Assembly: GCF_029051645.1 (NCBI RefSeq)
Contig: NZ_JAACFS010000004.1
Coordinates: forward strand, 186,001 to 250,000
DNA: 64,000 nucleotides
Direction of reading: 5' to 3'
From: Bradyrhizobium sp. CSA112
GTDB lineage: Bacteria > Pseudomonadota > Alphaproteobacteria > Rhizobiales > Xanthobacteraceae
Shown here: positions 10,826 through 63,399 of the stretch, piece after piece
Layout: each line of letters begins with the position of its first letter
How positions within the stretch are numbered: the first letter of the stretch is position 1
Program-made: the position numbers and the translations under genes
The notes under the pieces: model-generated
Database searches by the model: none
What the model was told of the DNA's origin: nothing
The model's input: the letters and a program-made list of their open reading frames with translations, nothing else

Positions 10826-12352
10826 TTAGCCGGTTGCGCCGATCGATGCGAAGAAGCGCTCTGGTCCTTCCAGCTCTACCAGCTTCTTTTTTTCGATCAG
10901 CCAGAACCGGTTTCCCACCGTTCGCACAAAGTTCCGGTCGTGTGAAACCAGCAGGCAGTTCGCCTGATGCTCCAGCAATTCGTCCTCCAGCGCCTCCTGT
11001 CCCTCGATATCCAGGTGATTGGTCGGCTCATCGAGCAGATAGAAGTTTGGCTGGGCAAGCCGCAGCAAGAGCATACCGAGGCGCGCCTTCTGGCCGCCGG
11101 AAAGCCGGCCGATCGGACGGCTCTGCATCGCAACGGGCACGCCTGAGCCGGCGAGCAATGCGCGCGCACGCTGATCGCCGACATCGAAGCTGCTGACGAT
11201 CGTGTGCATCGGCGTATCGGTATCGGAAAGATCGGCAAGATTCTGTTCACAATAGCCGAGCGCAAGCGACTGCGAGACCTTGATGCCGGCTTGCGTGGGC
11301 ACCGGGTTTTCGATCGCTTGACGCAGCATCGCCACGAACCGGGTCTTGCCAGCCCCGTTCGGCCCCAACAGCACGATCCGGTCTCCCTTGCAGATGAACT
11401 GCTTGCCGGTCTTGAACAGCAACCTTCTGTCCGGTGCCGCAACGTCGGCATCGTCCAGCGTAATCAGAACTTTGGCATGCGTTCCGCGGTTGGCCAGCTT
11501 GATCGTCCCGGCGGATCGTTCCAGGTGCGCAGGCTTTGCCGCATCTTCCAGCTTCTCGGCGCGCTGCTTCAGTTGCTTCGTCTTCTGCAACAGAAGATCG
11601 CTACCGGAATTGACGCCGATATTGTTGAGCTTTGCAGCGTGCTGGCGAAGCTGCTCGGCAGCCTTCAGGTCACGCCGGTAGCGCCGTTCATCCGATGCAT
11701 CCGCCTCGCTGAGCGCGGCGCGGGCCCGCGTATAGGGCAGCGAAAATATTTGTGACCGCTCGGGCCGCAAAAATACCGTGCGGTTCGTGGTTGCGTCGAG
11801 AAAGGCGCGGTCATGGCTCGATATCATAACCGGCATATCCCGTGGCAGCGCGTTCAGCCAGGCTTCGAGCTGACAAATCCTGGCGAGGTCCAGGTGATTG
11901 GTCGGCTCGTCGAGCAACAGCACATCGGCCTCGGCCACCACGATGCGGGCAAGCATGGCAAGCCGCTGCCAGCCTCCGCTCAGTTGCTTCAGCGGCCTCT
12001 CCCGCAGCGCCTCGGGCACTTCCAGCGATTCCAGCGCAACGTCGACCCTCCAGCTTTCACTTGCCCGTCGTTCAACGGGAAGCATGTCGAGTACCGCCGC
12101 ATAGAATGGCGTATCCGCGAGCGCGGACGGCACATCCTGCTCGACATAGCCGATGGTCAGCCCTCGCGATCTGGCGATCTCGCCATCGCTTGGTTCCGAG
12201 ATGCCGGCAATGCAGCGGAGTAACGTCGACTTGCCGCGTCCATTGGCTGCGACGAGCCCGATGCGGTCACCGGCATTGACGGAAAGGTCCAGTCGGGAAA
12301 ACAGCGGAGCGTTCAGCGTCACGCCAAGATTGCGAATATTGATAAGGGTCAC
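10826..12352 (-). CDS. ABC-F family ATPase
   Basis: A soluble protein of 508 residues with two ABC ATPase domains and no membrane segments, as in ABC-F ribosome-associated factors. Domain 1 has Walker A AANGRGKS (about residues 35-42), LSGGWQRLAMLARI and LLLDEPTNHLDL. Domain 2 has GPNGAGKT, LSGGQKARLGMLLLRL and YLLDEPTNHLDI. The two are joined by a charged linker rich in Lys, Glu and Arg. The likely start is the GTG at 12352 (VTLINIRNLG), since AGGGA lies six bases before it; an ATG at 12406 would add an unrelated leader. ABC-F proteins act in translation or antibiotic protection; which applies here is unknown. Confidence 0.85.
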   Translation of the reverse strand: MTLINIRNLGVTLNAPLFSRLDLSVNAGDRIGLVAANGRGKSTLLRCIAGISEPSDGEIARSRGLTIGYVEQDVPSALADTPFYAAVLDMLPVERRASESWRVDVALESLEVPEALRERPLKQLSGGWQRLAMLARIVVAEADVLLLDEPTNHLDLARICQLEAWLNALPRDMPVMISSHDRAFLDATTNRTVFLRPERSQIFSLPYTRARAALSEADASDERRYRRDLKAAEQLRQHAAKLNNIGVNSGSDLLLQKTKQLKQRAEKLEDAAKPAHLERSAGTIKLANRGTHAKVLITLDDADVAAPDRRLLFKTGKQFICKGDRIVLLGPNGAGKTRFVAMLRQAIENPVPTQAGIKVSQSLALGYCEQNLADLSDTDTPMHTIVSSFDVGDQRARALLAGSGVPVAMQSRPIGRLSGGQKARLGMLLLRLAQPNFYLLDEPTNHLDIEGQEALEDELLEHQANCLLVSHDRNFVRTVGNRFWLIEKKKLVELEGPERFFASIGATG

Positions 12353-16912: not shown

Positions 16913-17098
16913 TTAGTGGAGGGTTTCTTCGGCGGTATGCTTCAACCGCTCGATCTGATCCTTGACCATCAACTTGCGGCGCTTCAACTCGACAATTTGC
17001 AGATCGTCTGTGGAAAGGTGCACGAGCGCTTCGTGCAATTCATTCTCGAGAATCTTGTGTTTACGTTCAAGTTCAACAAGATGCGCCTGTAGTGCCAT
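16913..17098 (-). CDS. DUF465 (YdcH-like) small protein
   Basis: A 61-residue, highly charged helical protein of the DUF465 family. The pattern HLVELERKHKILENELHEAL, then LKRRKLMVKDQIERL, is the family signature and predicts a two-helix coiled coil. The ATG at 17098 is supported by GAGGAG eight bases upstream; a longer open frame continues upstream to 17281 without family character. The molecular function of DUF465 is not known. A second DUF465 gene is transcribed divergently from 17338, with about 240 bp between the two starts. Confidence 0.85.
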   Translation of the reverse strand: MALQAHLVELERKHKILENELHEALVHLSTDDLQIVELKRRKLMVKDQIERLKHTAEETLH

Positions 17099-17337
17099 AC
17101 GAAATCTCCTCGGTGGGTGAAACCTCAGATTCGATCCGGGCGAGGGAGTGTACACCAGCCGACGAATCTGTCGATGGTTATCCAGAATCGCGCCTCTCAT
17201 ATTTTCCAATTTATCTGTAACCAATCGTGAGTATGGGAACCCAGTCAGCTTGCGGACCGGCCTTGCAGAGACGATATTCACCGCCAGCCGAGGAAAATCC
17301 GTTCACAACCTCATCGCGTTATCAGCTAACGTACACC

Positions 17338-17544
17338 ATGACCGACGATGATGAGCGCGAGCTTGAAAACGAGCTCGCCCGCCTGCAGCAGGAACATCGC
17401 GATCTCGATGCAGCGATCGACGCGCTGCATCAGTCGCCGGCGCCGGATTTGCTGCGGCTGCAGCGGTTGAAGAAGCGCAAGCTGCAATTGCGCGACCGCA
17501 TCGCCTTCATCGAAGACCAGATCACGCCTGACATCATCGCCTGA
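17338..17544 (+). CDS. DUF465 (YdcH-like) small protein, second copy
   Basis: A 68-residue, charged coiled-coil protein (ENELARLQQEHRDLDAAIDA, then LKKRKLQLRDRIAFIEDQI) with the same two-helix pattern as its divergent neighbour at 16913-17098. It differs in having an acidic start (TDDDEREL) and a longer middle, so it is a paralogue rather than a recent duplicate. The ATG at 17338 is the first codon consistent with the family; an upstream in-frame ATG at 17227 would add 37 unrelated residues. Function unknown. The two genes share a 240-bp divergent promoter region. Confidence 0.8.
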   Translation: MTDDDERELENELARLQQEHRDLDAAIDALHQSPAPDLLRLQRLKKRKLQLRDRIAFIEDQITPDIIA

Positions 17545-17710
17545 TCGTCAAGTGTGCCGGGTTCGGCAAATTCGGTTCGCCAAAACCGTGCGCCGTTCGG
17601 GCAGATTCTTATCCCCGACATCCACACATCTCGACGTTGCGGCGGCCTTTGCCGCGGCGGGCCTGCTGGAAAACAGGCTTCCGGTTTACGGAAGCGGCTT
17701 GACTCGAAGA

Positions 17711-17725
17711 GAACAAAAGAGGAAC
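17711..17725. promoter_or_regulatory. Candidate LexA (SOS) box
   Basis: The sequence GAAC-AAAAGAG-GAAC is an exact match to the alphaproteobacterial LexA consensus GTTC-N7-GTTC read on the opposite strand. It ends 34 bases before the ATG of the small gene at 17760, where a repressor could block the promoter. This is a motif match only; chance matches of eight fixed bases occur about once in 65 kb per orientation. Confidence 0.45.
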
Positions 17726-17759
17726 ATACTTTTCTGCCGCCAGCCTCGGGAGTTCCGCC

Positions 17760-18026
17760 ATGTCTGCCACGCCATCCCCGTCCGACAACAGCCGCTACGA
17801 GCAGGCCTGCGATCAGGCCATCGCGATGTGCGACGGCAATCTGCGCTCGACCATCAAGGCGCTGATCATGGCGAACGAGTATCTGGAAATCGAGCTGGAG
17901 GAATTGCAGGCCGCGGTCGCCGCCGGCTGCGTACCGTCGCAAGCGTTTTCAGGCGAAGCGGGTGCCGGCTCGCGTGAAGAGAACACGTCGAAACGACAAC
18001 CGCACGCAAGTAGCAACGCTGCCTGA
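17760..18026 (+). CDS. Small hypothetical protein
   Basis: An 88-residue protein of unknown function. The middle part, ACDQAIAMCDGNLRSTIKAL and then NEYLEIELEELQAAVAAG, is a well-formed amphipathic helix pair and looks conserved in style. The C-terminal third is polar, low-complexity and probably disordered (SREENTSKRQPHASSNAA). The ATG has GGGAG at a suitable distance upstream, which supports it as a real gene. A candidate LexA box lies just upstream (17711-17725). It is followed 30 bp later by another small gene on the same strand, so the two may be cotranscribed. There is no signal peptide or membrane segment. Confidence 0.65.
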   Translation: MSATPSPSDNSRYEQACDQAIAMCDGNLRSTIKALIMANEYLEIELEELQAAVAAGCVPSQAFSGEAGAGSREENTSKRQPHASSNAA

Positions 18027-18056
18027 ATCCGGATCGATCACACGGGAGCGATACAA

Positions 18057-18308
18057 ATGGCCGATGTCACCTATTACGTCGCAATGCCATTCCTGCAGGA
18101 CGATAGCGGCTCGCCGGTGGCGGGCGCCGCGGAAGAATGCCAGAGCCCGACGACGGCGTTGCGGCGCGCCGAGACGATGTCGCGGATGGCCGGCAGCATC
18201 GGCGCCATAGCCTTCAGCCGCAGCGGCGATCCCATGATCGGCGAGTTCGGTGATGCGAAACTGCTGCGCAAATTCGGCAATGTGCCGGACGATCTCAGCG
18301 GGCTTTAA
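18057..18308 (+). CDS. Small conserved hypothetical protein
   Basis: An 83-residue protein starting MADVTYYVAMPFLQDDSG, with a central segment resembling a substrate-free ligand or regulator fold (TTALRRAETMSRMAGSIGA, then IAFSRSGDPMIGEFGDAKLL). GGGAG lies eleven bases before the ATG. Small proteins of this kind are common in Bradyrhizobium genomes without assigned function. It follows the 88-residue gene at 17760 by 30 bp and is probably in the same transcript. Directly after its stop comes an imperfect palindromic repeat (18317-18384) that may end the message. Confidence 0.68.
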   Translation: MADVTYYVAMPFLQDDSGSPVAGAAEECQSPTTALRRAETMSRMAGSIGAIAFSRSGDPMIGEFGDAKLLRKFGNVPDDLSGL

Positions 18309-18316
18309 GAATCGCC

Positions 18317-18384
18317 GTAGGCCCACCATCATGCTCGCCAGAGAGACGGTGGGCACGGCGCAAGCGCGCCTTTACCCACCCTAC
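18317..18384. repeat. Intergenic palindromic repeat, family C (degenerate copy)
   Basis: A 68-bp element beginning GTAGGCCCACC and ending TTACCCACCCTAC, with an internal GGTGGGCACGGCGCAAGCGCGCC arm. It is a worn version of the longer element at 60993-61095, which has the same GTAGGGTGGG / CCCACCCTAC ends. It lies between convergent genes. Confidence 0.65.

Positions 18385-61476: not shown

Positions 61477-63399
<1,923 letters not shown>

Follow-up and report, generated by a model that had tools for sequence, protein, structure and literature searches.

In Bradyrhizobium sp. CSA112, a pair of adjacent small genes, the open reading frames (ORFs) called here ORF1 and ORF2, is very likely under the control of LexA, the repressor of the SOS response. 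The pair lies in a stretch of 64,000 nucleotides (nt) from contig NZ_JAACFS010000004.1, and this whole stretch is referred to below as the window. The proposed control is supported by the conservation of a LexA-type box upstream of ORF1, by a footprint of conservation that coincides with the promoter, and by the rank of the box when it is scored against the SOS boxes of the same genome. A fuller interpretation, namely that ORF1 and ORF2 form a two-gene LexA-repressed operon whose products assist SOS-phase repair as accessory factors or adaptors, has in our judgment an even chance of being correct. The regulatory logic is standard, and neither window protein matches a family in four libraries; the pair and its relatives suggest a component of the bacterial damage response that has not been described before. 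These results add an operon that is apparently genus-wide, encoding two unnamed protein families, to the SOS regulon of Bradyrhizobium. A literature search, whose scope stopped short of subscription papers on the LexA regulons of Caulobacter and other alphaproteobacteria, found no paper on the pair.

The promoter and its LexA-type box

The original prediction described an exact GAAC-N7-GAAC match just upstream of an 88-residue gene that is followed by an 83-residue gene, and this arrangement was confirmed (Table 1). The predicted operator lies 49 nt ahead of the ORF1 ATG at 17760. Directly around it are the hexamers TTGACT and GAACAT, spaced by 17 nt, and the operator therefore takes up the spacer and extends into the inferred -10 hexamer. 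A scan with the sigma-70 consensus did not report this promoter, because GAACAT scores poorly as a -10 element under the consensus rule. The promoter was recognized in a box-anchored alignment of 78 named loci plus the window (locus L141 was left out, though its box is present), in which the promoter region is the sole well conserved upstream stretch, with a mean information of 1.14 bits at positions -24 to +20 versus 0.21 and 0.27 bits in the flanks. The conserved core of the alignment is CTTGACTc-n4-aGAACAAAAnnnGAACAT, and the combination TTGAC-N7-box occurs at just two places in the whole genome, upstream of the window pair and of one ORF1 paralogue. In the proposed mode of regulation, LexA bound at the operator would block RNA polymerase, and DNA damage would activate RecA and provoke the self-cleavage of LexA, allowing ORF1 and ORF2 to be made.

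Table 1. Positions of the features of the proposed operon in the window
Feature	Position	Strand	Basis
-35 hexamer TTGACT	17699..17704	+	nearly invariant in 79 aligned loci
LexA operator GAACAAAAGAGGAAC (predicted)	17711..17725	+	conserved in 79/79 evaluable named loci; SOS matrix rank 1
inferred -10 hexamer GAACAT	17722..17727	+	inferred from spacing and conservation; overlaps second operator half-site
Shine-Dalgarno-like GGGAG, ORF1	17748..17752	+	read from sequence
ORF1, 88 residues, two predicted helices, no known family	17760..18026	+	ORF list, dN/dS, model
Shine-Dalgarno-like GGGAG, ORF2	18044..18048	+	read from sequence
ORF2, 83 residues, predicted small alpha/beta fold, no known family	18057..18308	+	ORF list, dN/dS, model
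hairpin right after ORF2, possible terminator, no T run	18321..18354	+	fold z-score -2.55 (18306-18372)

Conservation of the box had been set as a test on which the original prediction could fail, and the box proved to be conserved. ORF1 and ORF2 were each matched in all 36 same-genus genomes (any match counted, window genome included), and the box was found upstream in 30 of 30 loci of a first set, the window being one of them. A larger set that shares species with the first comprises 80 named loci, 75 titled Bradyrhizobium and five from metagenome bins with broader titles. ORF1 is present in all 80, and the box in 79 of the 79 that could be evaluated; locus L151 could not be, because its contig starts at ORF1. 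The genes for an FAD protein, a DUF465 protein, a GGDEF protein and purE are kept as neighbours at every one of the 62 named loci of full length, and judged by this company the window pair sits at a fixed chromosomal locus, outside any prophage context. The window itself encodes two DUF465 proteins upstream of the pair, at 16913-17101 (-) and 17338-17541 (+).

The bare motif occurs about as often as chance predicts: two copies of GAACN7GAAC were seen in the window versus 1.86 expected, and a genome-wide count of 232 compares with 240 for the pattern reversed. Counts of the bare motif, which are uninformative in a GC-rich genome, were accordingly dropped as evidence, and other ways of judging chance were needed. 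The fuller form GAACAWANNNNGAACA occurs at 12 genome sites versus none for its reversal. Pfam confirms that the proteins encoded beside these sites include RecA, SSB, a DinB-type polymerase, a DnaE-type polymerase (dnaE2) and Ku, as well as a radical SAM protein, an RHH_8 regulator and a DUF4130 plus UDG protein; an ImuA-like protein was recognized by reading the sequence, with no Pfam match at E 1e-4. The genome also carries lexA, matched above the family cut-off, with the related box GAACACATATCGAACA about 120 nt upstream. When a 16-nt matrix was built from eight SOS boxes of this genome, excluding that of the window pair, the site at 17711 scored 22.4 bits and ranked first among 127,970 window positions, the runner-up scoring 15.2. 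The pair resembles the members of the alphaproteobacterial LexA regulon (recA, lexA, ssb, dinB and imuA-imuB-dnaE2) in having a GAAC/GTTC-N7 direct-repeat operator in its promoter, in a genome where lexA is present and core SOS genes have related boxes upstream; the Caulobacter motif is given as GTTCN7GTTC (PMC12700426). It differs from those members in that its two proteins fall outside every named family in the libraries searched. Taken together, the conservation, promoter footprint and matrix rank support the predicted SOS control of the pair.

Relatives of the pair and their neighbours

The association with the box extends to relatives elsewhere. Secondary matches in same-genus genomes provided a chosen subset of 40 paralogue loci (L069-L108), in which the box accompanies 22 of 29 ORF1 copies, including two doubtful cases (the L082 box overlaps an uncorrected frame, and the L103 spacer is atypical). 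Outside the genus, the box was sought within 300 nt upstream in either orientation and compared with control windows: it was found at 12 of 20 ORF2 loci versus 0 of 140 controls, and at 14 of 22 ORF1 loci versus 2 of 155. Relatives of both genes also occur on IMG/VR viral contigs, and the INPHARED phages contain no match for either. In a first set of viral contigs the box precedes ORF2 in 7 of 8 cases (control 4/234) and ORF1 in 3 of 3 (control 0/72); in a wider set that includes five duplicate contigs, it precedes ORF2 in 27 of 40 (control 18/1093). Furthermore, four loci (L205, L213, L255 and L300) carry ORF1 and ORF2 in divergent orientation on either side of the box, arguing that the association survives rearrangement. 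A class-wide search found ORF2 in 9 of 337 genomes and ORF1 in 2. Short or broken remnants of the pair are present in the window genome itself (G000:C112:81487, C123:5600 and C140:39747), and these suggest mobile copies that were gained and then decayed.

The neighbours of these relatives are the main source of evidence on function. At 10 of the 40 paralogue loci, Ku faces the pair, or the ORF2 of the pair, head to head across the box, and likewise at one of six plasmid loci (L109); SRAP is found within the examined stretch of 6 of the 40. Among 88 distant loci, for which clusters were counted from mechanical ORFs with five duplicate viral contigs excluded and Pfam confirmation obtained for ten proteins, an SRAP cluster occurs at 12 (confirmed by Pfam in 3 of 3 tested), and a small cysteine-pair protein recurs at 7. 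The paralogues that share a LexA-type box with Ku suggest that end joining is tied to the SOS response via small accessory proteins. Neighbourhoods of this kind are described in a study of SRAP and Ku (PMC3765255), which reports small zinc-ribbon proteins in SOS-linked SRAP/Ku neighbourhoods. The paralogues and distant ORF1/ORF2 loci are similar in adjoining SRAP, Ku and the cysteine-pair protein, but ORF1 and ORF2 are without zinc-ribbon cysteine pairs, and neither is described in the portions of that study's main text that were covered. One locus around a paralogue pair (L341, from G022:C13) carries SRAP-like and other accessory genes, some of which look defence-like by eye alone.

Co-occurrence was measured in a sample of 297 genomes of the order, of which 32 carry ORF1 and 56 carry ORF2; 21 carry both, versus 6 expected. 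Ku is present in 30 of the 32 genomes with ORF1 versus 91 of the 265 others, and in 45 of the 56 with ORF2 versus 76 of the 241 others, figures that are uncorrected for phylogeny or genome size. The effect holds when the window's own family is removed (20/22 for ORF1 and 34/45 for ORF2).

The two proteins and their possible role

Both ORFs appear, from their substitution patterns, to be real genes under purifying selection. The median ratio of nonsynonymous to synonymous substitution rates (dN/dS) against the window copy is 0.135 for ORF1 (45-codon core, n=69) and 0.157 for ORF2 (n=74). The genes are separated by a gap of 30 nt, each has GGGAG 7-8 nt ahead of its start, and the hairpin that follows ORF2 was not picked up by a terminator scan. 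The products are small, acidic and soluble by prediction, with no membrane segment (the maximum Kyte-Doolittle value over 19 residues is 0.91 for ORF1 and 0.63 for ORF2). The predicted model of ORF1 has helices at residues 7-23 and 28-54, with a predicted local distance difference test (pLDDT) of 75.3, and that of ORF2 is a small alpha/beta fold (pLDDT 84.7, predicted template modelling score 0.69). The view that neither gene has a known function was borne out for the window proteins, for which Pfam, NCBIfam, PHROGs and PADLOC contain no matching family; their relatives give weak scattered matches. A Protein Data Bank sequence search returned nothing significant (best E 0.19 for ORF1 and 0.23 for ORF2). 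Fold searches returned one Foldseek candidate and none at Z >= 2 for ORF1, and for ORF2 no Protein Data Bank or viral match at E < 0.001, with a best Z of 4.6; these matches are uninformative, and so we make no fold claim. Within the ORF1 family, 13 of 33 members match PF16193 (AAA_assoc_2, an AAA+ C-terminal domain) weakly, with a best E of 0.0017, and two match PF25361 (RFC1-like lid), with a best E of 0.0012. The window ORF1 itself matches neither, and for the family a resemblance to the lid of RarA or clamp loaders is possible.

From the neighbours we propose that the two proteins are soluble and assist SOS-phase repair as accessory factors, with a link to Ku and SRAP, and we put the chance that this is right at even or slightly lower. 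The two-helix ORF1 and the alpha/beta ORF2 would most likely act jointly, perhaps as physical partners, as accessory or adaptor factors of repair; they would then belong to the network that includes SRAP and end joining by Ku, and would not be membrane-based division inhibitors. Several observations weigh against this proposal or narrow it. Neither Ku, SRAP nor a zinc-ribbon-like protein was found at any of the 80 core orthologous loci (up to about 6 kb on each side, about 12 kb in total), and the link to repair therefore rests on paralogues and distant homologues. ORF1 and ORF2 are frequently separate, with many single-gene loci among the 88 distant ones, the Ku co-occurrence lacks the corrections mentioned above, and the predicted folds point to no function. 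Inside the order and outside the genus, the box is absent from 8 of 20 ORF2 loci and 8 of 22 ORF1 loci; outside the order it accompanies none of seven ORF2 relatives, and the wider ORF2 superfamily is therefore not all SOS-linked.

The main rival holds that the families are of temperate-phage origin, that the ORF2 relatives are LexA-controlled, antirepressor-like modulators of repressors, and that the chromosomal pair is a domesticated copy or a decoy. Of the 88 distant loci, 27 have a cluster encoding a helix-turn-helix (HTH)/S24 repressor as a neighbour, and 25 of these 27 are viral contigs; Pfam finds an S24 peptidase domain in all four repressors tested, and most ORF2 genes of the wider viral set are preceded by the box, as already noted. 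Small LexA-controlled antirepressors are indeed known in temperate phages, an example being the Gifsy proteins GfoA and GfhA (PMC3121763). With no comparison at the sequence level, the ORF2 relatives on viral contigs would be like these in being small phage proteins under LexA; many of those relatives lie next to S24 repressors. However, the core copy occupies a fixed chromosomal locus among housekeeping neighbours, the Ku and SRAP settings differ from phage control regions, and no PHROG family was matched; moreover, repressors with an S24 peptidase domain may cleave themselves, in which case no antirepressor would be needed. We consider a phage origin unlikely as the explanation of the pair, and the relatives that lie by phage repressors suggest a reuse by temperate phages. 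Still tentative, and to be held as a possibility on the weaker side, is a broader view that would join these settings: the two new families would be a mobile LexA-controlled module of the Hyphomicrobiales, common to the core chromosome, Ku loci, SRAP loci and temperate-phage control regions, and during the SOS response this module would tune the repair of double-strand breaks and possibly prophage induction.

The original prediction had offered division inhibitors or DNA-metabolism factors as frequent products of small SOS genes. The second suggestion agrees with the presence of Ku and SRAP beside relatives, whereas a membrane division inhibitor of the SidA/DidA type is not supported by the predicted proteins, which have no hydrophobic segment. 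SidA and DidA, damage-induced division inhibitors of Caulobacter of the type that blocks FtsW/FtsI/FtsN, are small and damage-linked, and SidA is under LexA. Both are transmembrane proteins (PMC4211646), unlike ORF1 and ORF2. An SOS-induced inhibitor could also be soluble, like SulA rather than SidA; LexA control and small size, with nothing further, speak for such a protein, neighbours such as Ku and SRAP give no hint of a division role, and we regard it as improbable. A toxin-antitoxin pair under SOS control seems to us similarly improbable. Two small adjoining genes with mobile copies would suit it, as would a weak likeness of the ORF2 model to the antitoxin Dmd (Z 4.4, root-mean-square deviation 2.5 Å over 56 residues), but this match is tied with unrelated proteins and its Z value is within the range of common arrangements, PADLOC gave no match, and the genes are not kept together, as the 21 genomes with both out of 32 and 56 indicate. 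A last possibility, that the box arose by chance and the two ORFs are small genes of an ordinary, unregulated kind, draws on the parity of the bare pattern with its reversed control; it is refuted at the sequence level by the presence of the box in all evaluable named loci, the promoter footprint, the matrix rank and the retention of the box in distant homologues relative to control windows, and its likelihood is negligible. The preferred reading of the pair as LexA-controlled accessory factors of repair concerns genes that are small and lie in one operon, so that laboratory strains offer a direct test of it.

Other SOS-type sites in the genome

Some further sites emerged from the same scans. 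The second-best matrix site of the window, the one at 15.2 bits, is GAACATGTCACGGACA at 62677-62692 (+), and the other GAACN7GAAC match, at 10920-10934 (-), is outside the six best matrix sites and is probably a chance occurrence. About 5 kb before the window (L230; G000:C129 near 180733), the box GAACAAATAAAGAACA lies upstream of an RHH_8 regulator. The genome has three Ku matches; one Ku gene (L234, 455-1381; G000:C162) has its own upstream LexA-type box, GAACATAAAGTGAACA, and no copy of the pair was seen beside it. Finally, a 62-residue ORF that matches no Pfam family (L225, 1551-1736; G000:C97 near 41428) lies about 50 nt after the box GAACATATATAGAACA and is a further candidate for a small SOS gene in the same genome.
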